The notes under the pieces: generated by a model | The model's input: the letters and a program-made list of their open reading frames with translations, nothing else | What the model was told of the DNA's origin: nothing | The model's database searches: none | Assembly (NCBI GenBank): GCA_037043015.1 | Contig: CM073327.1 | Location: 17,714,727 to 17,778,726, forward strand | Reading direction: 5' to 3' | DNA from: Bryum argenteum | Lineage: Eukaryota; Streptophyta; Bryopsida; Bryales; Bryaceae | DNA: 64,000 nt | Translations under genes and position numbers: made by a program | Shown here: positions 14,590-53,912 of the stretch, in pieces | How positions within the stretch are numbered: the first letter of the stretch is position 1 | How the letters are laid out: every line of letters begins with the position of its first letter

Positions 14590-15418
14590 AGGTAGCGGCA
14601 CCCATAACCATCCCACTAAGCAAATATGGTTGGTTACAACCACCAAGGAAGCTTGAAAAAAATATTTACACATTAGCAATTGGGAGTGAAAAATATTTGC
14701 TGTGAGAGATGAGGTTTTGTGAAGAGAGTGAATTTATAAGAATATTTAAAAGTACAAAATGAACATACTTATAGGTGGAGCTAAAAATGACCACCATTGA
14801 AGTGTTTGTTGTCATGTAGCGGCTTAAAACCAAGAAAGATAGTTCCTATAAAAGTTAAGCGGGGAATTGAAAAACGTCCCACCGTGGTTCAAAATTCCAA
14901 GCTGTGGATAAGCAAAAACTACCAGTAGAGGAAGAAAATGTTGGCCCCTCCAATCCCTTCACCAAGCACTAGTAACGAATAAACCAAAAGTCAAGGCACC
15001 TAACACCGCCATCCAAAGACAGAGAAGTGTGACTTTTCTCTCCTTAGAATGCACCTTTAAACCAGTCATTAGTCCATTAATTTGCCATGCAAATCACTCC
15101 AAACCAACCGCTCAACCACCTCTCAATATTATTTCATTAAAACACTATGCAGTTTACAACATGACACACAACATCCATTTCGAACACATGACATGCACAT
15201 TACAACATGACATACAACATTCATTTCCACACATGACATGCACTTTAACATGGCATACAACATCCATTTCCAACCAATTGGTAGTAAAGCACGCTTTAAT
15301 GTACACCCATTACTGTCCCTTTTTCACAACAGTCAACTATGGGTCTAAAAAGGTTAGCAATAGGTACACTTATAGGTCACGCCAATGGAGACAGGGATAC
15401 TTATGGGTATCACTACCT
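14590..15418. mobile_element. 829-bp MITE inserted in copia RT, TA target duplication
   Basis: The ends are AGGTAGCGGCACCCATAACC and the inverse of AGGTAGTGATACCCATAAGT, with the similarity reaching about 25 bp. TA flanks at 14588-14589 and 15419-15420; removing the insert with one TA rejoins the RT frame (...LLDVV to TAYLYG...). There is no coding capacity. An internal tandem array at about 15160-15275 repeats a ~35-50-bp unit built on ACATGACATGCAC and CAACATCCATTTC. The TA duplication points to a Tc1/mariner-type (Stowaway-like) origin. Confidence 0.9.
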
Positions 15419-15420
15419 TA

Positions 15421-16740
15421 ACCGCATACCTCTACGGCAAGTTAGATGAGGAAATTTTCATCAAGCACCCGCCACATTTCCTGGATACCACTCCAACACC
15501 GCAAGCTGGAAGACACAATGGCCTTCGCTTGCGGAAGGCGTTGTACGGGCTTAAACAAGCCGGGCGGGCTTGGTACCACCACCTCCGCCGTTTCCTTACT
15601 GAGAAAGGATTCATCCGCAACCAAGCATTGTCTTGCATCTTCGCTCGAGCCGAGCGAGGTGAGTTTGTCATTCTTGCCGTGTACGTTGATGACATAAATC
15701 TTGTTGGATCGCCAAAGATGTGCATACAAGTCAAACAACTCCTTGTCGCTCGCTTCGAGATGAAGCTACTTGGACGAACTTCCTTTTGTTTAGGTCTACA
15801 TGTTCATCATTGCCTAGATGGTAGCATCCTGCTACACCAGGAGACCTACACGAAGAAACTCCTCCACAGTTTCAATATGGCGCAAGCAAATTCCGTATCC
15901 GCCCCGATGATAGGTCGAAGCAAGAGTGGTGATAACCCGTACCAACCTTGCGAGGAGGACGAGGCCGAAGTCGACAAAACCAAGTACCTCGTGGCGGTCG
16001 GCGCCCTCCTGTACCTGGCAACACACACTCGCCCCGACATAGCGTTCGCCACAAGCGTTCTTGCTAGACATAGCAGAAACCGTGACGCGCCACCGAGCGC
16101 CATCAAACATCTACTCAAGTACCTCCGCACGGAGGACTTGGGCCTTTACTTCACGAAGATCTGAGATGCAACCATCACCAGCTATGCGGACGCCGGCTAC
16201 AAAACCGATGAGACAAATGGCAAGATTTAAACCGGCTATATCTTCCTCAAGTGTGGAGCACCCATCTCGTGGGGAACAGACCGTGACGGCCACCTTGACG
16301 AATCACGCCGAACTCATAGCGCTTCACGAGGCGGCCCGGGAAGCGGTATGGCTTCACCATGGTGAGTTCCATTTATGAAATGTGCGCAGGATTAAGCAAA
16401 TATCGGGAGCAACGACCATTTACGAGGACAACGCCGCCGCTATTGCCCAAGTCGGAGCGGACTTTATCAAAGCAGACCGTGTCAAGCACATAAGTCCAAC
16501 TCTATTCGGTTATATGCAAGACTTGGTGGAGACAGACCAGGTGTGAATGCAGAAGATAGAGTCTGCCCGCAACATATCCGAGATGCTGACTAAAGCTCTC
16601 CCCGCGTACAAGCATCGCAAGCTTGCCCGCGCTGCTGGGATGAGGGCCCTCCAGAAGCTTGAGTCCTCCACTTAGAGAGCGAACGGAGAAGTAACTCTTT
16701 TCTCCTCCTGAAACCTTCCGGGGAGGAGTTTTTAGCGAGC
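15421..16740 (+). pseudogene. copia reverse transcriptase and RNase H
   Basis: The RT continues with TAYLYGKLDEEIF, ALYGLKQAGRAWY and the catalytic YVDD at about 15680. RNase H begins near 16165 (SYADAGYKTDE) and runs to TKALPAYKHRKLARAAGM at about 16585-16640. Breaks: TGA at 16162, TAA at 16228, a frame change near 16275 (1 to 2) inside the RNase H domain, and a TGA near 16540. The apparent Met at 15385 lies inside the MITE and is not a true start. Confidence 0.92.
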
Positions 16741-21742: not shown

Positions 21743-22564
21743 TCAATCTGAACTGCCATAGTCAGAACAAGCATCGTCATGCTCATCAACGACACTAATA
21801 CACGAACCACCTCTCTGCAACCTTTGCCGAAGTTCGTTCGCTTCTTGCTGCGCCAAAAAAAGACGTTCCTTCAGTGTCAGATTCTCGTCCTCCAGATAGG
21901 CTATGTGACTTTCCTGTTCTGCAAGACGGACTTCCATGAGCTGTGCCCTGTGGCTGAGACCGTTCCCCGAAGGTAAAGTCAACTCAAAACGGCTAACATC
22001 ATGATCTAGCTGTTCCTCCACTTGCTGGACGGACTGCGGAGGATCCTGAACTTCATTCACCCGGCTACCGGTTTCATCTGGACAAAACTTAAGATGAATA
22101 AGACCTTCCATGGAGCCATAGCCATAATCTTTAACATCTCCCTCTAACTGAGGAGCAGGGGACGCAAACACAGGGGTTGACACAAAAGCAGGAGTAGCAG
22201 GTGTAGCAGGGGAGGCTGTGGAAGCCAAGCCCCCTGACTGACGAACTCTCATCAGGTAGGAACTGTCGTTGAAGGGAGCCCGGGGAGGTACCCGAGGCAC
22301 GCTCTTCCTTCGTTTCGGAAAGTGCCTGCGCGTCCTGATGCGGTTCTGACGCTGCAACTCCATCAGCCTCGGGGGATCGTACATGCCGGCCGCACTGTTA
22401 GCCACCGCACCGGGTCGTTGATGTTGCGCCGAAGGCTTGTTTCTCTTCCGAGGACGCCGATTCTGGTCACCACTGGCTCTCCACTGGCGCTTCTGTGGAG
22501 CGAAACTCCCTCTAGGGACGCCATAGCCGGCCTGCTGATTTGCAAAAAACATCGTAGAGTCCAT
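21743..22564 (-). CDS. Intact 273-aa nuclear-type coiled-coil protein, function unknown
   Basis: A single uninterrupted ORF with balanced codon use, unlike the decayed ORFs around it. Residues 1-55 are polar and basic, with RRPRKRNKP as a likely nuclear localisation signal. Residues ~80-105 carry RRKSVPRVPPRAPFNDSSYL, which looks like a conserved core motif. A Pro/Thr/Ser-rich linker follows (~115-135). An acidic segment leads to a leucine-rich coiled coil at about 205-252 (EVRLAEQESHIAYLEDENLT then LKERL..., heptad spaced). The tail is acidic and Ser-rich. It is probably a plant-conserved protein of unknown role; I cannot name it. I chose the first in-frame Met. The gene is isolated from both neighbours. 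Confidence 0.78.
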   Translation of the reverse strand: MDSTMFFANQQAGYGVPRGSFAPQKRQWRASGDQNRRPRKRNKPSAQHQRPGAVANSAAGMYDPPRLMELQRQNRIRTRRHFPKRRKSVPRVPPRAPFNDSSYLMRVRQSGGLASTASPATPATPAFVSTPVFASPAPQLEGDVKDYGYGSMEGLIHLKFCPDETGSRVNEVQDPPQSVQQVEEQLDHDVSRFELTLPSGNGLSHRAQLMEVRLAEQESHIAYLEDENLTLKERLFLAQQEANELRQRLQRGGSCISVVDEHDDACSDYGSSD

Positions 22565-23440
22565 TGCAATACACAGAACTTCCGCAAAAGACGGCTAACA
22601 GAGTAACTAGTGCTCACAACACGACGTCGAATCAACAGGTCGGAGCACTTCCGCAACTCGATGACTTGTTCAGGTTCCACCACTAGCTTGCTTCCCGTCC
22701 AAGGGTTTCAAGGCACAAAGTCCCTACGGATCTGTGGCGCCTCTGCCAAACAAGAAAAGCTCCCCAGTAAACGTGACCAAAGACAATTATCGCTGGCAGG
22801 AAAGAGCGACAGAGCCAAATGACAAGGGTTCCAAAGGTGTCGAAAACTCGTGAAAAGCCGCACGGCCGCGTCTTGATTTCTTCAAGCGAATTAAAAACTC
22901 TGAATCGTCCACTCCTAGCGCCTTAGTGATCTCCTTCTCTCTCTAAAGTACGACGCTGAAATTGCCAACCCTTCCAAGACACGAGATAGCTCTGGTTTCT
23001 TCGCAAAAACAAACGCGTAATGAGCGAACGGCAAGGTGCTGGCGAGGAAGATGAGGCGGTGGGTGCGTTTGTCGTGTCCCGTAACCGTGGGACCTGTCAC
23101 CTCGGGAACACTGAGACCAGAAATTGTGGCATTGAGTTACCGTGGAACCTGTCGCCGTGAGAACAGTTGCTGTGGGGCCAGTCACCGTGGCACAATTCCC
23201 GTTCAAGCCGCGGACTCAATGAAACATTCCTCAATGAAACTCCGTCCCTTTTCTAAGGGGCCGGCGTGAATTCGTATGCTAATATCCCGATGGCCACCGG
23301 ACAAGGGGAAATTGGAACAATAATACAGTGAATTCATCGCACAATGGATTGCAACCCTTGAAAGGTCAAAGTGTGAAAAAACCAACTCAAAATTAGAGCA
23401 ATAATCCTTACCGCATAGAAAAGGCCTCAAAAAACAAAAA
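22565..23440. other. Upstream region of the 273-aa gene
   Basis: Probably holds the promoter and 5' UTR of the minus-strand gene. At 23075-23185 an imperfect minisatellite repeats CCGTGG(G/A)(A)CCTGTC about four times (CCGTGGGACCTGTCACC, CCGTGGAACCTGTCGCC and similar). No ORF is convincing. Confidence 0.4.
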
Positions 23441-32337: not shown

Positions 32338-32414
32338 GTGAGTATCTCTTGTGTAACATGTACCTAAATTTCATAGTTGAGAGTTATGAGTAATGTCTAA
32401 CTTGGAGAATACAG

Positions 32415-35054
32415 ATGGAGTGGGACAATATTCCAATGAGAAGGAGTTCACGTCTACAGACACAACCGGAACCAACTACGGTTCCTCCAAGCCCACCATC
32501 TAGTCCTGAAGCAATATTACCTCCTCAACATCAAGAATTGCCAGATCTAGGACCTGGAGTTGAGCTCATGACCTTCCCTGATACAGATGTTGGCTTCAAC
32601 GGCGAGTACTTGAATTCGCAATCTCCAGTGCATGCGTATTACCCAAGCTCAGAAGAATTGTGTAATGAAGAAGGAGAAGATGATAGTGGTATGGAGAGAG
32701 CTGCAAGTCTTGAGGATATCCTCTGGCCACCTGAAGTCTTGCTTGCAGCAATAAACTTTGGCCGAAGAGGACGGAAGAGAGGTGGTGAGATCTACAATGC
32801 TGGACCTGATCCCGAAGAAGCAAGCGGGAGTGGTGAGATGCACGGACCAGCGCTGCAGCTAGGCGTCGACCAAGATTGCGGTGATGCAACGGCGTTGCGA
32901 CTAGTATGGGACTCAAGCCGGCGGACTGCGGGCTGGCACAGCGCCGCGGCCACGAGGTCGGGCCACGTCGGCGAGTCAAGCGCGTCGGCTGCCAGCTGGG
33001 GTCCGGCGCCGAGCGCAGCGGGGCATCTCCAGCCGAACAGCAGCAACGGCCGGCACGCCTGCTTACCCGGGCACCAGGGCCTTCCTGTGGCGGGTGCATC
33101 GCCTTCTGGCCTTCCCCTTACAGGCCATACGCTTGGGCTACAAGGGCAACCAGTAGTTGTGACTTCAGAAGAAAATATTGGTCAATTCACATTGCAGCCA
33201 AATATTTTTATTGGGGAGAGAAGTACTGGTATTGGGCCTGGAGAATTCTATGGCAATGATACTGAGGGCGGTAATAATAATATGGAGTGGGATGATGATG
33301 TTGAGGAAGAACATATAATAAGAAGGAGAATGACACGCAATGGTGTGAGGGATGATTTGGGTGGGAATGATAGTGAGGACTTACCCAATTTTGAAAGTGC
33401 CTCTGATAGTGATGGAGATAATCGTAACGATGGGTTACCCCATCAACAAGAGGATATTAGGTGGCAATTTAGGAATGAGACTTGGGGAAACCCAAGTATT
33501 ATGTATAATCCAATGCCGATATCATTTTTGGGGAAACCCATGGGTCCTTCTCGTCATCATCGTGGTATGCCAAGTTTTATGGATTTATTTGGCCTCTTTT
33601 GGACTCCACACATGTTGGCCACTATTGTTCAAGAAACTAATCGGTATGCAAATGCTCCTTTAGATGAGCATGGAAATACCAAAGGTGGTCCTACTTGGGA
33701 GAATATGACAATTTCGAGCCTCAAAGCATTTATGGCCTTAGCCATATATATGGGGTTGAGGGTTCAACCTAATGTAAGAACATATTGGATGCGTGATGAC
33801 CTCTTTGGATGCCCAAGTATTTCAAATATATTTACACGGGCCCGATTTCAAGACATTAGGAGATGTCTCCATCTTACAAACATGGAAGGACAAACTAGAG
33901 GGGACCCGGTTATGACAAAATCGGTCAAACAAGATGGTTAGTCAATGCTATGAGAGATCAATGTAAAAAGGCATGGTTTCTTGGAAAATATTTGACCATT
34001 GATGAAATGATGATTCGCTATAAGGGGACATATTCACCGATACGTCAATATATGCCTAAGAAGCCTCAAAAGTGGGGCTTGAAGGTTTGGTGTTTGGCAT
34101 GCTCGATTTCAAAGTTCGTATGGAATTTCGAGATCTATTGTGGAAAAGACAATATTGTAGCCCCCCTTCCCATAGAACAACCTAATATTGTTCTTGGCGA
34201 TGCTCGATTGGCCCATAATGTAGTTATGAGGTTAGTGGATGGCCTTTGGAACTTAGGCCATTGCGTGACAATGGATAATTACTTCACTAGTTTTGGACTT
34301 TTCACAACTCTTTTATCACGGGAAATGTATGCATGTGGGACAATAAGGGCAAACCGGGTTGGTCTTCCCTTAGATTTGAAAAACACCAATTCTTTCAAAA
34401 ATGTGCCTCAAGGCACAACTTTATGGAAAATGCATGACACCCGCACGATATCATGTGTTATGTGGAAGGATAAGAAGCCCGTGCTTCTTATTTCCACTCA
34501 TTATTTGCCAATTCAACCCCCATGTGAGAAGGTAGTAACGGTCCCTCGGCGAAATGGTGCAAGTCGTGAAATGATTCTAACATCCCCGATTTTGAAAGAA
34601 TATACAACTCACATGCGAGGTGTAGATGTTGCCGATCAACTCCGAGCATCCTATTCATGCCAAGTACGGAGCCACAAGTGGTGGCACCGTATTTTTTCTT
34701 CTTATTGGATGTCTCGATTGTCAACATGTATATATATTATTTGGAGTGTGTGAAACACTATCGATATAACCGCACGCCGATGACACACCTTCAATTCAAG
34801 AAGGGCTTATGTGAAGCCCTTCTTCAAGGGTGGCCTATGAGAGATTCACACCCGCGGATATTCCTCGAGCAAGGAACACGCCATTGATTTGTGTACCCAC
34901 ATATACAAAATTACGACGTCGGTGTGTGGTTTGCCAAAAATTTGAACCACATTATTATCGCCGGAAGTGTGGAGACAAATGGATGTGTCTCAATCGAGGT
35001 TGCTTTGAGAAGTGGCACACAGATATTGCCATACGACGCCAACGCCATATGTGA
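32415..35054 (+). pseudogene. piggyBac transposase, full length but with three -1 frameshifts
   Basis: The enzyme cuts and rejoins at TTAA. A long low-complexity acidic N-terminus (MEWDNIPMRRSSRL on) precedes the core at ~33470. Frame 1 runs to the stop at 33941. A one-base loss near 33910 shifts to the frame holding YLTIDEMMIRYKG (first Asp), CVTMDNYF (second Asp) and RGVDVADQL (third Asp). Another loss in a T run near 34692 and one in a C run near 34850 precede the Cys-rich C-terminal finger (CVVCQKFEPHYYRRKCGDKW, then CLNRGCFEKWH). All three catalytic Asp are kept. The damage is limited to these three single-base steps, so the copy is young or the breaks are sequencing errors. Confidence 0.93.
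32820..33130. other. GC-rich block within the transposase N-terminal region
   Basis: A ~310-bp block rich in G and C (GGCGGACTGCGGGCTGG, GGGTCCGGCGCCGAGC) within an AT-rich gene. It encodes Ala/Ser/Gly low complexity in the transposase frame and is open on the minus strand as well. It looks inserted or captured, although the frame is kept. Confidence 0.5.
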
Positions 35055-38619: not shown

Positions 38620-40915
38620 CCGTACTTTAGGGGCACCTTTGCCGCTATCTTGCCGAATAATTATTAAAAGTAGAAAAATAGTGTTCGCCGGAGAAAAAAA
38701 AAAATCTAAAAAATTTGGCATTTGGAATAGCTTATTAATGCAAATTTCGGCATTCATCCTTTTTTCTAACAATAAACAAGGATGTTTCTTCACAATTTCA
38801 TCTGCATTTGGCGGCTTGTGTATCCCTAATCTTGCCCTCATCTTGCCCGAATCTCTCTTAGTGCTCGTTGACATTGTTTTATTCTATTGAAAAATTTGTT
38901 AGTTGTTCCCGTATCCGCTGTTGTACATATTTTGAGAGCAAAAATGGCAAGACAAAAAACTCTAAATAGTATGTTTAGCATCCTCAACAAAGATGAGATG
39001 GAAATACGTGTGCACCGGGATTTTGCAACTCTTGGTGAGAAGTTGGAAGTAGAGCATGCCATGCGCAAAGAAGTGGTAGAGCGGCCAGTTAGAAGGCCAA
39101 AGAAAGAAATGGGGGTTGTGTTGTTAACATCAAAAGTGGAACGAGATGAACACGCGTCAAAGAAGGCAAAGATTAGAGGTTCCTACACTAATTGGTTCTT
39201 GTCTGCTCTATGGAAGCCTATCTATGCGACTGTGAAGCTTAATAAAAACCTTACAGCTGCCTTGAATTATTTACGTATAAAGCACAAGGTACCAGGAGAG
39301 AATTATAGTGTTTACGACAAGCTTTCCAGAGGCTCTCTCTACGAGTGTTTTTCTCCTACAGGCATGTTAAAAGAAGGATACAAGCAACACATCTTGAAAG
39401 AATCTTCTTTTTTTACCGGAAGCAAGCAACATGGTCACTTGCTCTCAGAATTTCTGGATCTAGAAGAGGAGATTATCAAGATGCTCGAGGGACATCAAGA
39501 TGTCGGTCAACCTCTTTGCGCAGCTATTGTACGAGGTTTGATTCGAAGTTTCATTCGAAAGAGAGAACCTAGTTTACTTGAAAACAAAAGTTCAAGCGGA
39601 TTTATGGTTTCACTAACATGGTCCCGCGAATTTGTTCGAAGCAAGTTGGATTGGTCTTATAGGGCAGCTACAGGAGCTGCTCGGAAATTACCAAGCAATT
39701 GGGAAGAACAAGGATTTTGAATGGCTCAGCGAGCGGCATTTCTTGTGAAGGCATATTCCATCCCTGCAGAAACGCTTGTCAATACAGACCAGACTGACAT
39801 TCAATTTGTTCCTACAAGTAGAGCTCAAACTTGGGCGAAAAGAGGGTCAAAGCATGTACTTGTACATGGAATGGAGGATAAGAGGCAAGTTGCAGTTTCC
39901 GTTTTTTCATTAGCGAACGGGACCCTCTTACCGTTTCAAGTCGTAGTTACTGACGTGACAGACAAAAGTCTTCCTCCTCGAAATACAGGACGGTTGCAAT
40001 GCGAAAGAGCTGGATGACAACTTACTTGTACTAAAAATCATTGGTCTAACTTAACGACTTGTTAAGAGTTTGTGGAAACAATTCTACAACTTTACCAAAA
40101 ACAAGTTGTGGAGCGATTGAACATGCACAAGGATTCAAAACTTATATGGTTATTGGCCTGCTGGAGTGTGCACAAGTCAAAAGAATTTGTTGCATGGATC
40201 AATGAGAGACATCCCACAATACTTCTAATATTTGTTCCTCCAAATTGTACATCTATTTACCAACCTGCAGATGTCATTCTTCAACGACCTTTCAAACATG
40301 GTTTTAGAATTGAATTTGATACTTACACTACAGCTATGATTGACAATCAACTTGATGAGAAAGAGGCAAAAGATGCGAAGCTTGATTTTCGCATGTCAAC
40401 CTTAAAACCTTTACTGTGCTCATGGTTGTTTGAGGCATTGCAACATGTCAACAAACCAACAATGATCAAACGCGGTTGGGCACAATGCGGACTTGAACAA
40501 GTATTCGACCCAACATTTCAATCTCTTGCAATAGAAAAACACATGAAGACACCACTTTTCAAAGAGACGCCATTTGAAATAGAACGAGTTGAATCAAGCA
40601 AAATAGAAGAGGAGACTGACCCTAACGACAGTATTGAGGCCATTATGGAAGATGGTTTAGTACAAGTTGCTGAAATCATCACAACAAACAAAAAAATCGA
40701 CCATTTTAACATTGAAATCTCTTACTCAAAAAAGGTAAGTTCCTGCCACAATTTGAACACATGAAGTAGGCACAAATTGTGTTGAATTTGGAGATACTTC
40801 GTCATTCATCTAATTTAGTTTCATGGCTTTCCAGCAAGCTGATAGCATAATTAAATAAAATATCCAGCATAATTGTTAGTAATTATTTTGTGCCGAAGGT
40901 GCCCCTAAAGTACGG
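38620..40915 (+). mobile_element. pogo-like (Tc1/mariner superfamily) element, 2,296 bp
   Basis: TIRs start CCGTACTTTAGGGGCACCTT at both ends (20 of 20 identical). TA flanks at 38618-38619 and 40916-40917. The element splits the minus-strand Harbinger transposase. One DDE_1-type gene lies on the plus strand. Confidence 0.94.
38944..40764 (+). pseudogene. pogo/DDE_1-type transposase with stops and a lost catalytic Asp
   Basis: All segments share one frame. The N-terminal half is Lys/Arg-rich with helix-turn-helix-like repeats (LSRGSLYECFSPTGMLKEGY; RGLIRSFIRKREPSLL). The DDE core shows NTDQTDIQFVPT (first Asp), then GMEDKRQVAVSVFSLANGT, then LLACWSVHKSKEF, where family members have LLDCWSVH (second Asp, here Ala), then FVPPNCTSIYQPADV (third Asp position). 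Stops: TGA at 39718 (one step from CGA), TGA at 40015 (from TGG) and a TAA at about 40054 (from CAA). The C-terminus ends in an acidic tail. Inactive. I chose the Met at 38944 over 38887 because the earlier part looks like terminal repeat sequence. Confidence 0.9.
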
Positions 40916-42126: not shown

Positions 42127-43285
42127 CTCAATAGAAGAGAAAGGTCAAAAGTCATTAGGAATTTTTGGGTTGAGCCAAGGCAATCCACACATTGGAATTA
42201 TGTAGAATAAGTAGTTTGAAGATCAAGTGACAATATGCATCATCAGAAACTCAAGCATTTTTATAGAATGAGTTTTTCCGCTTTCAACAACTTGTTGGGA
42301 ATGTTGACTCCTTTTTTTAAGAGTAATTGTGTGCACCAAGTTAGGCCGCAATTAGATATCATGAAGATAGTTGCTTGTGTCCTTTATAGAATAGCTCATG
42401 GGTTTAGTCCAATGCATATGGCAAACCCTTTTAAGGTAGGAGCATCAAACGTAAGGGAGTATGTGGACATAGTTTGTGAGGTTCTCTCTAATGAGACCAA
42501 ATAGTTTTCCCACTGCATTTCTATTCCTACAAGAGAGCGTTTGCAAACCATTATTCATGATTTTGAGACTCTTACCGGGATTTCCAACATGTGCGGGGCG
42601 ATTGATGGTAAACACATTCCTTGGAGGAGCGGCCCAGTCAAGCTGTCACACCGGCGTCTGAAGACTTTTACAACAGGAAGAAGTTCCACTCCGTCATTTT
42701 GCAAGCGGTATGTGACTCCAAACGTATGTTTTCGAATGTTTGTGCTACTCAACCGGCTGGTATGCATGATGGTGGTCAATTGAAAGTATGTAGTTTTTAC
42801 AAAGATTTGAGGGAGCGTCAAATCTTGCAAACTCCTATTTTGGATGTTGGTGGTGTGAATTGCACACCTTTCCTAGTCATCGGTTCTGCTTATCTCATTA
42901 AAACCTTCTTATAAACAATTATAAGGTTCCTAATGATGTAAACAGTAAGAAATTTGATTTCTTAATGAATTCTGGAAGAGTTATAATAGAAACCGCTTTT
43001 GGGAGTTTGAAAAATAGGTGAAGAATCATGAAGCATTTTAATTCTAGATTAGATAAAGCAGCTAGAATTATAGTGGCTTGTTGTTGGCTGCACAACTACA
43101 CTGAGATGTGGTACGAGGTAGAGCCCTTTGTAGCTAGGGGTGTGGATAGAGTAGATTCCCTTTGTTGGATTTGGAAACGTCCGTCTCCCGGTCCGTAAAG
43201 AAGGTGAGCGGGCAAAGAGACGTGGAGAAGCATTGAGAAATGCACTTTTTACTCAATGGGTTTCCAATAACCCAAATGAATGATG
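42127..43285 (+). pseudogene. Second PIF/Harbinger transposase, frameshifted
   Basis: A different family from the one at 37907-41417. The N-terminus reads FWVEPRQSTHWNYVE, then FYRMSFSAFNNLLGML. The catalytic core begins GAIDGKHIPW (first Asp) and continues, after a one-base loss near 42640, with DFYNRKKFHSVILQAVCDSK and GMHDGG (second acidic region). After another loss near 42910 it reads FGSLKNR, then WRI-like KHFNSRLDKAARIIVACC and LHNYTEM. Stops include TAG at 42502 and TGA near 43020 where Trp is expected. Inactive. Confidence 0.85.
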
Positions 43286-43493
43286 TAATCTAGGTTATGT
43301 ATTATTTTATAATTATATAATTTTTGTAAGGTATTTATTTTAAGATTTAAAAATATATTTCTTTTTTTTAATCAAAATTTTCTCTATTACTCAAAGTTCT
43401 AGTCACTCAAGCCACTTTCATGTTCGTGCGGAAGGGTGTTGATTTTAGTGTTAATTTTTGTTTACTATTGTAGCTTGCACGTGATTGGTTGAG

Positions 43494-44092
43494 AGTTAAC
43501 GGAATATTCGTAGTATACTTGTTAGGCTATTATTTGTCTAGTCTATACCCGGCATGTATAGACCCGACAGGCGATACCCGGTAGGGTTAGCAGGTCGGAT
43601 CTCTAGTTGTTGTTTTTAGAGTCTTAGACTCATTTTGGACACCCGACCTTTCTAGCCGACCTGGCAGACTGGTCGGCTGACCTGTTGTTCTCAGCTGGAT
43701 TTGACAGTTAGTCGGACCCAGCCGACTATATGAACTACTCCTCACTATGTGATGAGTGTTACTAGTTTATACACATTGTTGCTAGTATCCTCATCTTCCT
43801 ATCTCGTCTTTCTCTGCTGTTCACTTTGTATGCTTGTGTGTTTAGCAGACCCGACCTTAACCTGTAGGATTTTGACTGTTGTGAGAACTGCGTTATTCTC
43901 TACTCTCGTCTGTTTGGAAGATCCGACCTTAGTGCCTACAGATACACTAAGTCGTCTCACATACGGTAGAGCGAACGCCGATCTCTTGCTGTTTAGACTG
44001 CTTTTGATATTCCGATTAAGCTTAGCATGTCCGGTAGCTCGAGATCAGACTAGACTCGTTTAAGGTTGTTTACAGCAAAAACCCCCTTAACA
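43494..44092 (+). repeat. 5' LTR of the GAG-only element (599 bp)
   Basis: The first base is A where the 3' copy has T, so the terminal TG is mutated here. The end is CCCCCTTAACA. It is otherwise almost identical to 53309-53907. Confidence 0.96.
43727..43735 (+). promoter_or_regulatory. Candidate TATA box in the 5' LTR
   Basis: TATATGAAC, preceded by the GC-rich inverted pair GTCGGCTG...CAGCCGAC at ~43672-43726. The position in the LTR suits a retroelement promoter, with the start of transcription expected about 30 bp downstream. The 3' LTR has the same sequence. Confidence 0.5.
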
Positions 44093-44603
44093 TTTGACGA
44101 CCTATGCTTGAGTTCGATTCCATTGTTTCCAGATCGCGCAGATCTGAAGTAGAGCAGGTAGATCTCCCTCAACATTGGGCTACCGTGCGATTGTCTGGTC
44201 CAGCATTTTGGATCTGTAAATGAGTAGAAACTGTGTAGAGCATGCCGATACAGATGTCGACCTTGCACACATCTGGTCTGAAAGTGTCTGCTATAGAGGT
44301 TTAGGAGTATGCAACCTACTGGTCGGTTGGCACAAAAGTTGTTGGTATCAAGGTTTCAGTAAAAATCTGTCTCCTACACTCAACAGCATCTGACCCAGTC
44401 AGGTAGAGTACGGCAACATAGCTTAAACGCGCCTCGGAGATCATAGTCGCTACGTGTCTATCCAGCAAAAGTAGAGTCGTCTAAGAGTGCTAAGAAATCT
44501 GTAGAGCGGTGTGTGGAAGAAGCTCACGGTGCCAAAAGAACAACTAAGTGAACTCACACAATACACCAGCCAAGCAGACTGCAACCCCAGACTCTACCTG
44601 CCA

Positions 44604-44661
44604 GATCCAGATTCAGATTCAGATCTAAATCTGGATCGAGATCCGAAAAAACCGGATCTCG
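44604..44661 (+). other. Two adjacent hairpins just upstream of gag (candidate packaging signal)
   Basis: GATCCAGATT (44604-44613) pairs with AATCTGGATC (44628-44637). CGAGATCCG (44637-44645) pairs with CGGATCTCG (44653-44661). Both stems are perfect and stand 25-80 nt before the gag ATG at 44686, where retroelement RNAs commonly carry dimerisation and packaging stems. The role is inferred from position. Confidence 0.6.
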
Positions 44662-45884
44662 ATCTGAAAGTGACACGTCACCATTATGACGGGTCCACGA
44701 ACGCGTGCTGCCGGCTCTCCTGAACCAGCCGACTTACAACCCGACCAGCTGGAAAATTCCAGACTGTATCGGGAATGGCGCAGGTTGCAGTCCCGGATAA
44801 ATCCAACTCTAGACACCCGACAGTCGACCCCAAGGGCCGACCCCCTCCCGACATATAGCTTCAGAAGACAAGTCTCAGCATCCACGTCGGATGAAGCGTC
44901 CCTGCACCACCTGATCGAATACACCCAGGGCATGACGGACGTCCCGGAAGGTACAGTCTTTCACGAAACGTCTTTCCCAATGAATCGTGGCGGGTATACC
45001 GACCCGACCCGACCGGTGGTCGATTTGCCACTAACATCGTCAACAGCGGATCGGTACACCCGACCGAGTGTGGCGACACATCCGATTTCGAACCCATCAA
45101 TGCCCCGAAAAAACCGGGACGACCAACCACCACTTCCTGACCGACTGTCTAGTGCCAACCAACCGCTTGTCAGGTACAATCCTGACCCTTCCATCATTAT
45201 GCAAGAGCGTCAGCACGAAATTGATTTACTACGAAGTAGTCGGGCCGAACTTGACCTCCGTCTGGCCACTCTGATGTCTAACCCGGGCCAGGCAGAGCAA
45301 CCGCCCCTACCAGGTCGGACCTCCCAGTTGGCATCATATTACCAGGAACCTAGTTCTCCTGGCCCAATAATGAGCCGACCGGGTACACCCCTAGAAGAAA
45401 GTCCTTCCCCGACTGCTAGACAGGAGTTCGACTCCCATACGATCCATCAGATCCAGACTATTTATAATCAAGGAGTCGACCCGCTAGCAGTCAGACCCGC
45501 CCTACCTAACATTCGCACGCACCCACCGGACGTATTAACATTAGATCCGCCCGTCAACCTTCCACCCGACCATAGAATGTCGACCCCACAAGCTTTCACC
45601 CAATACAGTCATCAGGCACAGCCGGTACAACGGGTCTTAGTTACCCAGCCGACCGCCACACCTGTATCATCCTCGACTTTTTCCTGGCCATTCTCAGCCA
45701 GCACTTATGGTCGACCACTCACTACAAGAAAATGGGTGTAAAACCTACTAAAGATTGACACTGAAATGTCCAAATCAACAAAAAGGCCTTCGCACCTTGG
45801 ATTTCTGTCAATTTACACGGAGTTTTGTCAATTCTCACTCGTTCAAATTTTTTTGTCAAACTTTTGTCAATTTTTTTGGAATTT

Positions 45885-45960
45885 TTTTGGAATCTTAGGG
45901 AATATTCTTGGAATAGTTTGGAATCTTTCGGAATCTTACGGAATCTTTGGGAATCTTTTC
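45885..45960 (+). repeat. Minisatellite of GGAATCTT units in the CACTA element
   Basis: GGAATCTTAGGGAAT, GGAATAGTTTGGAATCTTTC, GGAATCTTACGGAATCTTTG and GGAATCTTTT follow each other, about seven imperfect 10-12-bp units. Confidence 0.85.
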
Positions 45961-46009
45961 ATTACTTTTCAGACATTGATAAAAATGCAAATTGAAAAAC
46001 AAAGATGCT

Positions 46010-46108
46010 TTGGGGCATCATTATTTCTTCAAAAAGAAACAATTGAAAAATTTTAAAATATTTTCTAGATATAGAAAAATCCCTGCATGCAATATTGAAA
46101 AAAAAAAT

Positions 46109-46144
<36 letters not shown>

Positions 46145-46450
46145 GTAAAAATTATTCAAAGTCAACTGGGCAGTAAAAAAAGGCTCTAACCTCAAAAAAA
46201 AAAAAAAAATTCAAAAAAATTTGAAATTTTTTATACATATAGAAAAATACCTGCATGAAGTAGTGGAAAAAAAAATTTTGAAAAAAAAATGTTTTTTTAC
46301 ACCGTGAAAAATATTCAAAGTATGCTGGGTAGTAAAAAAACGCCCCAGCCTCAAAAAAAAAAAAAATTTCAAAAAAATTGAAATTTTTTATACATATAGA
46401 AAAATACCTGCATGAAATAGTGGAAAAAAAAAATTGAAAAAAAATAATTT
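46010..46450 (+). repeat. Three ~160-180-bp A/T-rich tandem units in the CACTA element
   Basis: Units start near TATAGAAAAATACCTGCATG (46065, 46235, 46395) and include AAAATATTCAAAGTA(T/A)GCTGGG(C/T)AGTAAAAAAA. Long A and T runs (up to 27 T at 46112-46139) make assembly length uncertain. Confidence 0.85.
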
Positions 46451-46534
46451 TTACATGGCAAATTAATCGCCAATGGTTAAGTATTTGAATAAGTTACAAA
46501 ATTAAACGCATATATGCATGAATGTTTGTAAGTG

Positions 46535-46635
46535 TTGTGGCGGTTGAAGACATGGGTTAGGGATGAAGAGGTTGTGGGTTCAAACCCGGGTGGCGACAGT
46601 TTGTGAAGTTCGTGGTGGGCCCCACCGGTGGCGGT
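46535..46635 (+). repeat. Possible tRNA-derived SINE remnant
   Basis: GTGGGTTCAAACCCGGG includes a B-box-like GGTTCAAACCC, preceded 35 bp upstream by an A-box-like TGGCGGTTGAAGAC. Spacing and context suggest a tRNA-derived short repeat rather than a tRNA gene, since no acceptor stem closes. Confidence 0.35.
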
Positions 46636-48864
46636 TGATAATGCGTTTTTTTTTTTTTCATGGGTAGTAGAATCGTAGTTACCTCAAGAAGCGTAAAAGT
46701 AGAAATGAAAATAAATAATAATTTCAGGTGCAGTAAACATTAACATTTACTTCCTTTAAAAAAAATCACAATCTTTGGGAAATGGTGAAATTGTAAAAAA
46801 AAGGAGGCTTTGGAGTCCTACGTGGAAGTTTATCACCATAGTGTAATAGTGACATGGCAAGATAAATCCAACATGGCAATTACATTAGCAACCCGTACAT
46901 CCTACGTGTATTTTTCGCAGAATTGACAGCCGAATTGACAAGGTTCTCTCAACTACATGACCGAATCAGGGTACTAAAATTGACACCACAGTTGACAGTT
47001 TTTTGTCATTTTTTTGTCAATTAAGACAACCAGCGCCTTGTAGTGACTAGACCCATTGTCACTACCTATGCAGGCTGTGAGTCTACCAACTGCACCTATA
47101 CAAACGGTTACCCGACCAACCACCCTACCCCATCCATCGGTGTGTACGTACTGTCACACCCCAGGTCATACTATTGAATACTGCCCCTATTTAGTAGCAC
47201 CCAGACCAACAGCACCAGGTCTGGCACCACCTGTCTACTCGGCAGCGGTAGGACCGACTTACTTAGCCGTTCCGACAGCACCTGGTCAAGTACCGCCTGT
47301 CTATCCGACAGCGGTAGGACCGACCTACCCAGTCGCTCCAACAACATCTACACCTGTACCGCCCGTCTATCCGACAGGTACAGTACCACCATACCCTGCT
47401 TACCAGACATGAGCAGTCCCACCAAACTCTGTCTATCCGACAGCAGCATACCCAACCCGCACGACTGCCAGGAAACCAGTGGTCATGCCGACCGATAAAG
47501 AAGGAAAGTGTGCCATGACCCATGTCAACCGTTTTGTCAATGCGTTGATGCTAAATGGAGAAACAGATCCGAATATATGCATTGCCCTGTTTGGTAATTC
47601 CTTAGTCGATGCAAATAATTATAATTGGTTCACCAACCAACGGTCGACCCTACCCTACCAAGACCTGCAGGGCCTAATGGAGGCCTTTAAATACCGGTAT
47701 CAGGATATTGACAATGATGACCAAACCTACCTCATATTCCGTAGTCTCAAACAGGACACTAAGGAGTCGGTGGATGACTATTACGAGCGTATGATGAAAC
47801 TGGCCGGTCAATTCAAAGTATCTCCAGCCGACAATTTCCTACTAAGCAACTTTCGAGCTGGCTTGTTGAAGTATTTGCAGGTAGCGACAGTTGGACTACC
47901 TGATCGACCACCCGCGCGCGAGCAAAGCGATCGGCCAAGCTCGCTGAGAGCGGACTACCGAAGGAACCTGACCCAACCCCTGTTGCCACCCGACTAGATC
48001 AGATCGACCGGACAAAACGAGTTGTATGCAACTTGTGTAAAAAATCGGGACATGGAGAGAGCGACTGCTGGCGGAATCCGGAGAGCGACTTCGCAAAACA
48101 ACGAGCGGCAGAAGAAAACACCGTACCGATGGCGATCGCCACACCAACACCGTCGACATCCGGATCCGGAGTCGACCCCCTCGGGACACAACTCCAAAGC
48201 GCATATTTCCGTGCTCACTTTGCAAGCAGTTGGATCATCCGACCCACTTTTGTCCAATGTTGATGGACCCACGGGTGGTCAAGTTTCTGAATCAGCACAC
48301 GAAGGAAAACAAGCCTAGTATTTTGACAGTGGTGATCGAGGATCTGGCGACAACTACAGTAGGCGTGGTGACAGTCGCAGCTATCACTCGGAGCCAGTTG
48401 ACACCCGACCAGTCGACACCCGACCCTTCGACACCCGACCAGTCGACACCCGACCAAAGAGCACCACCGAAACCGACAGATCGGGACGATGACAGAGGCC
48501 TGCGTGATAAAATGGTGCAGGAAGTCCGCCAGCTCCAACTCGAGTTGGAGTCCCCGACCTTCAACAATGACACGCAGTCAGCAGAGGACACCACGACAAC
48601 GGAATGGGACCCGGATGCGTTACCCCAGCCACCGACCCCACCTCACCAGGAGCGGACAGAGCCGACCCGACCAGTCGACCCAACCTCCACGGTGGTAGGG
48701 GACATACACCAACAGATTCTGACCAGGTTTCACGACTGCAAGTTACAGGTGTCGCTGACGGACTTGTTCCAACTTTCACCGACTCTCACGAGTATGGTGC
48801 GAGATAGCTGTCCCGACCCACCTCACCTGACCCGACAGTCCAGGACCAGTCGACCACAGAGGAC

Positions 48865-49500
48865 GTGTTAATTGCAGCGGCCGAGGTGATCGACCGGCAA
48901 ATGCCGGTCATTTCCGTGTCGGTTGGCAAGAACCTAGTCAAAGACGTTCTGATCGACGGAGGTTCCGGGTCAACGCCGTCGCGGAAGAACGACGACGCGC
49001 GGGGCCTTCCGAAGCCTTCTCCAGCACCCTTCAACCTGAAGATGGCTAACGGTACACTCGCCCGACCTAAAGGTCTCCTCCGGGATGTCAAGATTCACAT
49101 CCATAGCATCCCGTACATCGTAACCATGGTGGTACTCGACTGCTCAACAGTCCAGTCGGACTACCGGATGTTACTCGGTCGACCCTAGCTCCGACACGCC
49201 AAAGTCATACACGACTAGGACAACAATGAGGTACAGATCATGGGCAATGGAACCATCAGGACAGTTAAGATCAACCGACAAATGGGATACGAGGCAGTCA
49301 CGCCACATGCCCTTGTTTGCTACAACTTTGTCGAAGGCATCACCGATGAGGAAGAAACCATACTCCTGGCATCCGACCCGGAGCTGCATCCACTTGGCAC
49401 GATCGACTGGAACCAGATATCTTCTGTCGACCCGACAGTCGACCCGCCAGTCCACACACTAGTATTGTCAGCGGTCCAAACCGTCTATGAAACGACCCGA
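48865..49500 (+). pseudogene. Retropepsin-type aspartic protease of the GAG-only element
   Basis: The frame opens through STTEDVLIAAAEVIDRQ. The active site LIDGGSGS (about 48949-48972) has the D-x-G-S form seen in gypsy proteases, and the flap/second motif region shows DYRMLLGRP. Two stops, TAG at 49186 and 49216, both stand where Trp is expected (GRP-W-LRH; HD-W-DN) and are one G-to-A step from TGG. The frame continues to ~49776. No RT follows, unlike in autonomous relatives. Confidence 0.85.
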
Positions 49501-49647
49501 CCCAACCCGACCCGACCCTGTACCGGGCAGGCAGTCCAACTCAGCAGTGCAGAATCGACACGAGTCCAACATCCGACCGCTAGTCAACGGCACGTTGACC
49601 AGCCACTGACTAGCAGACACCTGGCAGCTGACAAACAGTCAACAGCC

Positions 49648-49700
49648 AGTCCAACGTATTTAAAGACTGAACTCGAAGTTTTCACTTCGAGTTCCAACTC
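49648..49700 (+). promoter_or_regulatory. Candidate internal promoter before the large ORF
   Basis: GTATTTAAAGACTGAAC at 49659 offers a TATA-like box, followed 90-110 bp on by a CT-rich leader (CTCTTCTCCTCTTTTTTTCC) typical of plant 5' UTRs. It is followed by ~800 bp before the best Met at 50552. The sequence supports only a suggestion. Confidence 0.35.
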
Positions 49701-50551
49701 TTACTTACCGTATGGGCAATTATTTAGCCTCATGGCAACGCCCATCTCTTCTCCTCTTTTTTTCCTCTTCTCATGAACACCACGCCGCTTTTGCCTTGTG
49801 TGTTCTTAGTGTAGGAAGAGAGAATCACCATAGCCAAGCCCCCGAGTTGCTTACTACACCGGCACACATCGCCCCACGACGGCAACACATTAGGAGCGCA
49901 GGAGGAGCAGGGCGCAGACGGGCAGGCCGACCTCGCCCCCACAAATGTCGGCCGGCACCCCAGATTAGGGTTACAGACCTACGCGGCCGGAGTCTTCGCC
50001 AACCCGACCTTGAGCAGCCGCAGCCATCACTGCCAGAGATTTCCTTGCGCACGGACAGCAGGCGCACGCGTTTCCGGAGCCGACGTCTTGCTGTCGACCT
50101 GACAAAGCCCTCATCGACAGTCGCATCCGGGCTGGAGCCAGGATGTGCTGTCAAGGGTTTCCGGCGCACCGTCAACCAACAGTTGCCGGTCCCAACAATT
50201 CGCGCGAAGCATCACCGGAGCAGCGGCGAGGGTTTCCGGAGTACCGACACTCACGCGCCGGTACCAAAGGTCGATCGTCCAGCAGCCGCCGCACTCCGTA
50301 GTGCGAGTTTTCGAAACCCCGACCTCAGGCAGTCGGCGGTTTTTAAGAACGGGACACCACCAGCAAGCAAGGGTTTCTGCAAATCTATCCTTCGACCGAC
50401 ACCGCCGAAGACGAGCGGAGATCTAAGAACACCAGTGCCGTCGTTCGAGCAGTTTGGAACAGCCGACCGCAGTCACGTTTCCGTGTTCAGGTCGTCTCTG
50501 CCTTTTCCCTTGTCCTTTGCCGCCATCTACAGGTTGCCACCCGACCTTCGG

Positions 50552-53287
50552 ATGGGGCCGAAGAGCAAGTACACCCCCGCAGGACGACAGCAGCGACTGC
50601 GGCGCGATGACCAGCCGGAACCAATCCGGAATGTTGACGGCAAATACAAGGTCCTGGAGTTCAAGCCGTTCAAACCCTTGGTCGAATGGCTCGATTACAC
50701 ACGCCACCACCCGGAGGAGATGAAGTTCGTGGAGCGTTTGGGCCTCCGATCGTACTTGGAGGACAACATCTGGGCCGACCCCTTTCGCGCGCCACAAATG
50801 CAGCTTGTTGAGGAGTTCGTGAACGCAGCCGACATCGTGAAGGAGACATCGGCGACCGCACGCGCTCGAGGTCGGGTGGTCACGATTGACGTGGAGCTTC
50901 TTCGCCGCGTTGTGAAGCTCCCAACCGGGTCGACCATCACGGCCTTCGTTGCAGCCGACCAGGTACCCGACTACCAGCAGCTGCTGGCCTCCTATCGACT
51001 ATCAGAGGCGAAGAACCAGGACGGCTTCACCATCCTCTATTGCGACCCCCGCCATCAGGCACGTCTACGCGGTATGGTATTCGGCCTTGCCTTTAAACGC
51101 AAATTATCATACGTTAGCAAAGAGACATCCGACATCTTGGCCACTGCCGAGACCCTGGCCTCGTCGGGTAAAGGATCGTGGGACTGGTCGCAATTCGTCC
51201 TCGAGTCCCTGTTGATCGACATCGAGTTCATTCAGAAGTACAGCACCATCATCTGTCCTTTGGCGGAGTTGCTGGATAAGTTACTAGGCGAGTTTTTCGA
51301 CCCAACCCAGGAATCCTACATTCCAATACCCGTGGCGGACGCGAACGTGTTGGAACGAAAACACCGCGATGAGAACATCCGCAACAATTTCCGCGGACCC
51401 GACTACCTCCTGGCGAATGGCGGACTTGGCGTCGACCCTTCGTTTCCACGACCCGACACCAGCACAACAGGTACCAGCATCTTATCCTTACCTGCCGACA
51501 TGGGTAAACGACCATCCGAGGTCGCATCCCGCAGCCGACCAGACAAGGTCGATCCTTCTTCTCCACCGCAACCGGTCGCCCACAGTCAGCCAATTGTCGA
51601 CCTCAACAATCTTCCGTCTCCCGACCCCGCTCACCCGGCAGTCCCATTTTCACCACGGCGGAGCGAACGTCTTCGGAAGAGTCCAGCAATGCTGGTGTCT
51701 CCATTCGACCCATCGAAGCGCCCAACACACAGCAAGAAGCGGCCACGGGATACCTTCAACCAGACCCGGCGCTACAGACGATTAATGACGGGCCCTTACG
51801 ATGAGGAGGACGAGGATGATCGCAGCGAAGTACCTTCTACAGCCACCAACAGCGAAACGCAGCCGAACACCGCGAGGTCGTCCCCGACTCGGCCCACCAG
51901 CCCGACTCCAACACTCGACATTGCCAACCTCGAACCGATGGAGCTCAATCCCACCCAGTTTGATCAACCGCAACCCGGCCTCCGCACGCTTCCGGCAGTA
52001 TCTTCGGAGAAGCGCCCGACCGCCACCCAGGAGCAGACTCCCGACTCTCCCAGAGCTCGGGCGTTAGCTCAGTCCGTGACCATCCGCAGGGGACTTACAG
52101 CCATCCGACATCACCTGGACGAGACGGAGCAACATGAAGTCAACCTCAGCCTTCAGCTCCAGCAAGCTTTGCAAGATCAAGCCGATTTGCAGGGTCGACT
52201 CGACAAGGCCGGCTTGGAGCGATCTCGCCTCACCGGCGACTTAACCAGGCTGCGTCATGAGACCGACCAGACAGTGAAGGAGTTGCAGGAGACCCAACAG
52301 CGCATGACGGCTTTGCAACTAGCGCTGCAGACTGCTCACGACCGCAACCAGCTGTTGACGGAGGTTCACGCCCATAATGAGCGACTACAGACTTCCAATT
52401 TGACGCTCACATTTACGAAAACGACGTTGCAGAAACAGTTGATCAATGCCGACCAGCAGCTAGCAACGACCCGACAGGAGCTGCAGATGGCCCAATTACA
52501 GCATTCGCAGGCCGACGCGAAGGCCCGCCAGCTCCAACAACAACTCAACACACTTTACGAACGCAACACCGAGTGGCAGCTTGAATCCGACTAGCGCGAC
52601 CGACAGCTACTCCGACTTCGCAGATCAAAGTACCGCCTTCGTCTGGAGATGCAGGCTAAGATCCAACTCCTCACCTCCTCAATCAATGCCCTCAACAGTC
52701 AGTCGACTCGTTATCGCCGTCAGCTCGACGCCATCCAGCAGACCCATCCAGAGATCGACCTTCCTACATTGGAGGACGAGGAGGAGGAATTGGAGTTGAC
52801 ACCAGACCCGACATCCCTAGAGAACCAGTCCACCGACGACGACGAGCGCGTACCACCAGGCGAGGAGACACCACCCGACAGCCCCAAGCCGGAGGACCAA
52901 GACCAAGATGACAACAGCAAGCGCGAGGATGACGACCGCTCACGAGGACCCGACATCAGAAAGGGTCGAGATGGACAGGATGACCACCAGGCGACGCCGC
53001 GACGGAGGAACTCAACCCGACCAGGAGCCCGACTAGTCCGGCACAGGAGACAACCAGCCCAGCGAGCACGACCCGACCAGACAATAGGAGCAGCCGATCG
53101 TACCATCACAGCAGGCTCCTCCAACAGCAACAGCCTAGCAATCTGCACCCGACCCGACACGGCCGGACAACCCACCAGTCGATATTCGAGCGCCTTCTCA
53201 GAAGCCTCACCGTCGATTGGTTCGATCTCTGTACGGTCCGACCACCCTCGATCACCTTCCGTGTTAGGCTACAAGTCACGGGAGTGA
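50552..53287 (+). CDS. ~911-codon extra ORF with PMD-like N-terminal domain and long coiled coil, one internal TAG
   Basis: The frame is open from 49712, but the Met at 50552 (MGPKSKYTPAGRQQRLRRDD) is the better start: upstream codons look like untranslated leader. Residues ~31-251 form a compact mixed alpha/beta-like domain (VLEFKPFKPLVEWLDYTR; ADPFRAPQMQLVEEFVNAAD; RGRVVTIDVELLRRVVKLPT) that recalls the plant mobile domain/putative plant transposon protein (Transposase_32) domains carried by some plant retroelements. This is by eye only. A disordered region with basic SKKRPRD and acidic DEEDEDD stretches follows (~340-480). Residues ~520-735 form a Gln/Leu coiled coil, and the tail is charged. 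TAG at 52592 interrupts the coiled coil, one transition from CAG; the same frame continues to 53287. Function unknown. Confidence 0.75.
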
Positions 53288-53295
53288 CTTGTTCT

Positions 53296-53308
53296 AAAGG
53301 GGGGGCAA
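53296..53308 (+). other. Polypurine tract
   Basis: AAAGGGGGGGCAA abuts the 3' LTR start. It is the primer for plus-strand synthesis in LTR elements, so priming signals are kept even though the polymerase is missing. Confidence 0.85.
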
Positions 53309-53907
53309 TGTTAACGGAATATTCGTAGTATATTCGTTAGGCTATTATTTGTCTAGTCTATACCCGGCATGTATAGACCCGACAGACGATACCCGGTAGG
53401 GTTAGCAGGTCGGATCTCTAGTTGTTGTTTTTAGAGTCTTAGACTCATTTTGGACACCCGACCTTTCTAGCCGACCTGGCAGACTGGTCGGCTGACCTGT
53501 TGTTCTCAGCTGGATTTGACAGTTAGTCGGACCCAGCCGACTATATGAACTACTCCTCACTATGTGATGAGTGTTACTAGTTTATACACATTGTTGCTAG
53601 TATCCTCATCTTCCTATCTCGTCTTTCTCTGCTGTTCACTTTGTATGCTTGTGTGTTTAGCAGACCCGACCTTGACCTGTAGGATTTTGACTGTTGTGAG
53701 AACTGCGTTATTCTCTACTCTCGTCTGTTTGGAAGATCCGACCTTAGTGCCTACAGATACACTAAGTCGTCTCACAGACGGTAGAGCGAACGCCGATCTC
53801 TTGCTGTTTAGACTGCTTTTGATATTCCGATTAAGCTTAGCATGTCCGGTAGCTCGAGATCAGACTAGACTCGTTTAAGGTTGTTTACAGTAAAAACCCC
53901 CTTAACA
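53309..53907 (+). repeat. 3' LTR of the GAG-only element (599 bp)
   Basis: Begins TGTTAACGG and ends CCTTAACA; followed by the target duplication TTGAG. Confidence 0.96.
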
Positions 53908-53912
53908 TTGAG

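Follow-up and report, generated by a model that had tools for sequence, protein, structure and literature searches.

A pol-less Ty3/gypsy family in Bryum argenteum with gag-protease and a 3' accessory reading frame, probably mobilised in trans

Features of the locus

The window, a stretch of 64,000 bp (C7:17714727-17778726) of the Bryum argenteum genome (258.8 Mb, 25 contigs), contains an LTR element at positions 43494-53907, here called copy A1 (Table 1). A1 has the hallmarks of an LTR retrotransposon: LTRs with TG..CA ends (the 5' LTR here starting with AG), a target-site duplication (TSD), a primer-binding site (PBS), a polypurine tract (PPT), and gag. The 3' LTR of A1 and the LTRs of other copies begin with TGTTAAC, and AGTTAAC was seen only in the A1 5' LTR. 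The PBS stretch TTTGGCGACCTATGCTTGAGTT is common to copy A3 and to B1, a member of a sister family (see below), and carries one G>A change in A1. The two LTRs differ at 7 of 599 sites (K2P 0.0118), corresponding to an insertion about 0.45 My ago at a rate of 1.3e-8 substitutions per site per year, a rate that may not fit this plant.

Table 1. Features of element A1 and its borders, in window positions
Feature	Position	Strand	Remarks
Target-site duplication (left), TTGAG, 5 bp	43489..43493		
5' LTR, 599 bp	43494..44092	+	begins AGTTAAC
Primer-binding-site region	44095..44112	+	candidate PBS, by comparison only
gag ORF, 5' part	44674..45719	+	
Nested CACTA-like non-autonomous DNA element, 1326 bp	45720..47045		
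gag, 3' part	47049..48800	+	frame broken in A1; CCHC-like motifs
Aspartic protease region, LIDGGSG	48808..49455	+	homology to B1 protease ORF; TAG 49186-49188
pol-deletion junction common to A1-A5	49455..49461	+	A6 has 3133 bp with RT-RH-INT here; CAGT at both edges
Exchanged block	49813..52628	+	77-78% identity to A4/A5; flanks 94%
3' accessory ORF (aORF)	50552..53287	+	in-frame TAG at 52592 in A1
Conserved N-terminal domain of aORF, putative remote Transposase_32 relative	50621..51430	+	
Coiled-coil region	52103..52561	+	FPP match E 9.3e-5, under curated cut-off
Polypurine tract AAAGGGGGGGCAA, directly 5' of 3' LTR	53296..53308	+	
3' LTR, 599 bp	53309..53907	+	
Target-site duplication (right), TTGAG, 5 bp	53908..53912		

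Several reading frames of A1 are damaged. A Pfam search of the window ORFs placed a Retrotrans_gag domain (PF03732, E 3.2e-7) at about 47623-47865, within a gag split by the CACTA-like insertion, which has CACTACAAG at both ends, is flanked by an ACT/ACT duplication, and is missing from all four copies compared (A2-A5). The last 81 bp of this insertion (46965-47045) are 100% identical to positions 1-81 of another locus (L071) that adjoins element B2. Relative to copy A4, the gag-protease (gag-PRO) frame of A1 has several stops and frameshifts, including the TAG in the protease, and Pfam yielded no protease match among the window ORFs scanned. The initial annotation of this DNA was correct about the LTR element, its near-identical LTRs, perfect TSD, and PPT; its gag is present as a domain but interrupted, and its retained protease holds for the family and not for A1. 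The single ORF of about 911 codons that it had drawn at 50552-53287 is broken by the TAG at 52592 into 680 and 230 codons, and close to its end A1 differs in length by 7 bp from A2-A4, which shifts the frame.

Searches for the remainder of pol were empty. No reverse transcriptase (RT), RNase H (RH), or integrase (INT) was identified among 198 six-frame pieces (at least 30 aa) compared with pol queries from the pol-bearing locus A6 and from family B (both described below): these queries gave seven scrappy matches of 12-25 aa in the window (E 0.22-0.67), and as a positive control the A6 RT query matched element B1 at E 0.0. Four RT-motif patterns had zero matches in the window, and the sole tblastn match of the A6 PR-RT-RH-INT region to the window, at 49165-49590, comprised the protease end and a low-complexity stretch behind it. 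The earlier statement that no motif of these enzymes is found in any frame was thus upheld, as was the general description of a recent, non-autonomous element of unusual content.

Other features of the window include a SAM_LFY domain (E 1.1e-28) of the LEAFY family, which is characteristic of plants, a Copia-type RT at 15376-16164 (RVT_2, E 9.1e-34), and a 283-aa ORF at 21743-22594 (minus strand) whose end appears coiled-coil-like by eye and which had no Pfam match at E 0.01. A transposase in two ORFs at 32394-34753 (DDE_Tnp_1_7, E 1.6e-18 and 1.3e-47) is one that we take to be PiggyBac-like; two ORFs at 38872-40764, of which the second matches DDE_1 (E 3.7e-5), are perhaps a pogo-like transposase; and a fragment that matches DDE_Tnp_4 over 42612-42914 (E 3.3e-6) lies upstream of A1 at 42220-42914.

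Pol-less copies and pol-bearing relatives

The pol-less family is small, with five copies: A1, A2 (C5:21729545-), A3 (C1:25225760-25234798), A4 (C10:9954058-9963229), and A5 (C1:37936764-37945549), the aORFs of the latter four being 96, 95, 82, and 80% identical to that of A1, respectively. All four copies with both ends found have a 5-bp TSD, each different (TTGAG in A1, GTAAC in A3, ATCGG in A4, GGCTC in A5); for A2, there was no LTR match in roughly 1.3 kb beyond its leader. LTR-LTR divergence was 0.020 for A3, 0.005 for A4, 0.008 for A5 (252 bp only), and 0.026 for A6 (478 bp only). Four LTR-only loci were also examined, three with 5-bp duplications (L018, L021, L022) and one without (L020). 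The gag-PRO frame of A4 is open over 876 codons in the part of A4 examined, and the aORF has stops or frameshifts in four of the five pol-less copies. Among the RT matches listed (40 of 274 candidates scored in one search and 131 of 2756 in another), none lay within 30 kb of the five copies.

A relative bearing RT and the same type of LTR, which the initial annotation had proposed to look for, does exist. Locus A6 (C1:27997972-28026765, minus strand) is flanked by LTRs of the A type (93 and 91% identity; such LTR identities, for A6 and family B alike, come from the 40 of 153 candidates scored), and its protease region runs on into RT and integrase. A6 is itself degraded; its RT lies within a 924-codon open frame, and its RT-RH-INT pieces match B1. 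The window aligns to A6 on both sides of 49455|49461, where A6 is 3133 bp longer. Because this junction is identical in A1-A5 and CAGT stands at both edges of the extra stretch in A6, pol was, by these alignments, most simply lost in one event, the pol-less form then having been inserted several times. A6 is without window positions 50104-52799, that is, most of the aORF (loci L045 and L008); this single copy mirrors the pol-less ones.

A sister family, B, has LTRs about 75-82% alike to those of A. In both B1 and B2, the order is protease, RT, RNase H, integrase, an aORF homologue, and LTR, with Pfam matches in family B pol for RVT_1 (1.1e-27), RT_RNaseH (6.9e-35), and rve (6.5e-13); a Pfam scan of two B pol ORFs showed no second RNase H, and in B1 the aORF, too, has a broken frame. 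The Ty3/gypsy order PR-RT-RH-INT is thus present in B1/B2 and A6 and deleted from A1. The LTRs of A and B1 both begin with TGTTAACGGAATATTCG and finish with AAAAACCCCCTTAACA, and A and B1 have their PBS stretch and PPT in common.

Position and identity of the accessory ORF

The initial annotation had placed a large unrelated ORF in the position of pol. A protein search of the genome with the aORF domain returned 108 matches, and at least 32 of the 63 longer ones (shorter pieces being left out of this count) were preceded on their own strand by an RT no more than 6 kb away. By class, the classes being identity bands, the counts were 0/5 for A, 17/23 for B, 12/27 for C, and 3/8 for D; all are lower bounds, as the count drew on 48 of 131 and 9 of 40 RT matches in two lists, and B2 (C10:13663928) was scored as lacking RT though an RT was read in it. 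In 27 of the 32 RT-linked matches, the gap from RT to aORF is 2.55-3.36 kb, enough to accommodate RNase H and integrase. Because of this linkage and of the integrase-then-aORF order in B1/B2, the aORF is an accessory ORF in sense orientation between integrase and the 3' LTR. This Athila-type arrangement is seen directly in B1/B2, and for A it emerges when A is set against B and A6. The aORF only seems to replace pol because pol has been deleted: B1/B2 have both pol and aORF, and A6 has pol at the deletion junction. The genome search turned up no element that combines pol with an aORF of the A1 or A4 type at 80% identity or more.

The identity of the domain was less straightforward. The aORF domain of A1 had no match in Pfam, and Transposase_32 (PF20167) weakly matched two of the 14 members, A1 not among them, with a best E of 0.0013. 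Profile-profile comparison of the 14-row aORF alignment with two genomic loci passing the Transposase_32 cut-off gave probabilities of 88.6 and 91.2, against 0.1 for a reversed control and at most 3.6 for 60 column shuffles. From this profile similarity, we take the aORF domain to be distantly related to Transposase_32, with a coiled coil following it. The PMD-like domain of the initial annotation was not recovered: PMD (PF10536) matched none of the 14 domain sequences and did not match the ORF of A1. PMD had no match elsewhere in the genome, and control genomes were equally silent, so genome-wide absence does not follow. A profile search of the PDB gave nothing convincing for the aORF domain (best E 0.022), and single-sequence structure prediction (mean pLDDT 35.9) was too poor for a fold search. 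Our best guess is that the product is a nuclear or RNA-handling accessory protein mainly serving the RNA that encodes it. Elsewhere in the window, a 258-aa ORF at 862-1638 (minus strand) is 66% identical over 93 aa to the domain of a distant aORF family (L084) and is likely what is left of a further element with an aORF.

Exchange of the aORF block

The five copies are not uniformly related along their length. In 250-bp windows, A2 and A3 were mostly 0.91-0.98 identical to A1, falling to 0.85-0.88 within the leader and over 48300-48549. A4 and A5 were 0.82-0.99 identical to A1 outside, and 0.71-0.84 within, a single block. A two-edge model placed this block at 49821-52628 (A4) and 49813-52628 (A5), with log-likelihood gains of 194 and 183, respectively; the same model applied to A3 returned only 73 bp and a gain of 21. 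Over the first 620 aORF codons, dS between A1 and A4 is 0.62, versus 0.05-0.11 for within-type pairs and for gag-PRO. By these comparisons, the aORF block (about 49813-52628) is one that was swapped for a diverged version; gene conversion of the same tract would be expected to leave the same pattern. Over the left block edge, A6 is closer to A5 (92%) and A4 (90%) than to A3 (84.5%), and for this reason the A4/A5 type of aORF is likely the older one on the A backbone, the A1-A3 type having likely arrived after the pol deletion. A6 may itself be a recombinant.

An isolated piece of an A1-type aORF (92%), split in two with about 1.3 kb between the parts, lies at C1:12573433-12578412 (L006/L007). 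The fragment at C1:12574933-12576912, 92% identical to the A1-type aORF, was considered as a possible donor, and no A-type LTR was detected in the flanks examined.

Selection after the loss of pol

Selection was assessed by dN/dS, a check that the initial annotation had suggested. Over the 3' part of gag and the protease (750 codons of A4), dN/dS was 0.39-0.58 in 10 of 10 pol-less pairs (Fisher p 1e-5 to 0.014). For the aORF, read in the A4 frame, three of the four within-type pairs were significantly below 1: A1-A2 (0.56, p 0.0096), A1-A3 (0.54, p 0.0036), and A2-A3 (0.35, p 2e-5), and the fourth, A4-A5, was not (0.73, p 0.17). Because the pairs have branches in common, the tests are not independent of one another. 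Corrected roughly for decay after insertion, by means of LTR divergence, the aORF ratios were 0.37 (A1-A3) and 0.69 (A4-A5). The last 190 aORF codons gave 0.48-1.13 in seven pairs, mostly close to neutral. The low ratio for A1-A4 (0.28-0.29) was rejected as proof of constraint: because the aORF block was exchanged, that divergence arose outside the pol-less lineage and is uninformative about it, and constraint was judged from the within-type aORF pairs and the gag-PRO backbone only. These ratios give good support for constraint on gag-PRO once pol had been lost; for the aORF, constraint is supported in the A1-A3 type only.

A semi-autonomous subfamily and its alternatives

Our explanation, in which we have high confidence, is that the A family is a semi-autonomous Ty3/gypsy subfamily that arose by one RT-RH-INT deletion, supplies its own GAG-PRO and aORF protein, and would obtain its enzymes in trans. 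An ancestor of the form LTR-gag-PR-RT-RH-INT-aORF-LTR would have been stripped of RT-RH-INT by a single deletion with a short repeat at its edges. Intact pol-less copies would then yield GAG-PRO and aORF protein from their own RNA, and RT, RNase H, and integrase would come from a pol-bearing relative with the same LTR ends, PBS, and PPT, which could belong to family B or be an A element that has pol, A6 for example. If RNAs were packaged together, template switching could account for the exchange of the aORF block. Judged from sequence, the pol-less family is thus probably mobilised in trans by a related complete element; for wheat partner elements, trans supply and template switching have likewise been inferred in the accounts concerned (PMC11302176, PMC9744471).

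The initial annotation had raised the possibility that the element carries a captured host gene. The aORF has no canonical retroelement domain, and the N-terminal domain in A1 had no Pfam match, as such a capture might predict. Yet the domain recurs 108 times in the genome, at least half of the longer matches lie behind an RT, mostly at the regular spacing given above, and the aORF regularly follows integrase in pol-bearing families, all of which makes it a gene of the family and recent capture highly improbable. An ancient host-gene origin may still apply; 31 of the 63 longer matches have no nearby RT listed. Unlikely too, if less so, is the notion that the copies are pol-deleted remnants spread by chance with an aORF under no selection. 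It would fit the broken aORFs of four copies, the A4-A5 ratio, and the near-neutral C-terminal part of the aORF, but it sits poorly with dN/dS below 1 in every gag-PRO pair and most within-type aORF pairs, and with repeated separate insertions flanked by TSDs.

The difference between the A1-A3 and A4-A5 aORFs might alternatively reflect fast evolution in place rather than block exchange, and accessory ORFs have indeed been described as very fast-evolving or as independent acquisitions (PMC6317226). We regard this as quite improbable here, given edges that are sharp in two copies, the elevated dS confined to between-type comparison, and the affinity of A6 for A4/A5 across the left edge. Exchange of the block within a semi-autonomous, trans-mobilised subfamily remains our preferred reading. 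Going one step further, and tentatively, a pol-less lineage may be unable to lose the aORF: RT and integrase could be borrowed, GAG-PRO and aORF would be needed in cis, and the aORF would be swapped as a module for a diverged version instead of being lost. We consider this extension possible but doubtful.

Comparison with known elements

TR-GAG elements have GAG as their only coding gene. The A family is like them non-autonomous with gag, and departs from that definition in also keeping a protease region and a large aORF. The initial annotation had suggested a distinct non-autonomous class; this does not stand, as GAG-protease elements without RT and INT, and defective elements that keep an aORF, appear in published accounts (PMC9744471, PMC11302176, PMC11963269). 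In wheat, the Gypsy elements RLG_Sabrina_SA and RLG_WHAM are described as having GAG and protease, no RT or INT, and essential motifs in common with an autonomous partner (PMC9744471). The A family similarly keeps a GAG and protease frame (A4, 876 codons), has lost RT/INT, and has the LTR ends, PBS, and PPT of a pol-bearing partner (B1). In contrast, the passages describing these wheat elements make no mention of a 3' aORF (PMC9744471), and their homology to the partner is given there as a few motifs, whereas A and B LTRs are about 75-82% alike and the pol-bearing sister is recognisable.

Other systems share other parts. (i) RLG_Quinta and RLG_Cereba, also of wheat, pair a gag plus unknown-domain element with a partner across a recombined block (PMC11302176). 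They are centromeric, Quinta is said in that description to encode GAG and DUF1 only, without protease, and the exchanged block is gag rather than the aORF as in A (PMC11302176). (ii) Retand clusters 2 and 3b of Alopecurus myosuroides (55 and 43 copies in Table 1 of the source) contain GAG, AP, and TRP28 with RH/INT absent (PMC11963269); the text there names one such cluster, and the table has no RT column. Their accessory ORF is antisense and of TRP28 type (PF04195) (PMC11963269), unlike the sense, putatively Transposase_32-like aORF of A. (iii) The 3'aORF(+) of sunflower Athila 14 is a 3'-terminal sense ORF whose 487-aa product partly resembles Transposase_32 (PMC11728184). The A aORF likewise is in sense and 3'-placed, and is putatively a remote Transposase_32 relative; the Athila 14 ORF stands beside GAG and POL, whereas that of A has about 900 codons and a coiled coil in a pol-less element. 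Each part is therefore known from the accounts above; our literature search of open-licence papers returned no pol-less element with a Transposase_32-type aORF, that is, no combination of GAG-PRO without pol and such a 3' aORF.

These results remove what had seemed a new class of element and leave a natural experiment in its place, in which one deletion parts the borrowable functions (RT, RNase H, integrase) from those retained (gag-PRO and aORF). What accessory ORFs do in plant LTR retrotransposons has been described as unclear or unknown (PMC7264820). Constraint on the aORF in pol-less copies would argue for a benefit to the element that carries it, and, if the aORF is indeed needed in cis, the function of plant 3' aORFs would become testable through a natural deletion series.
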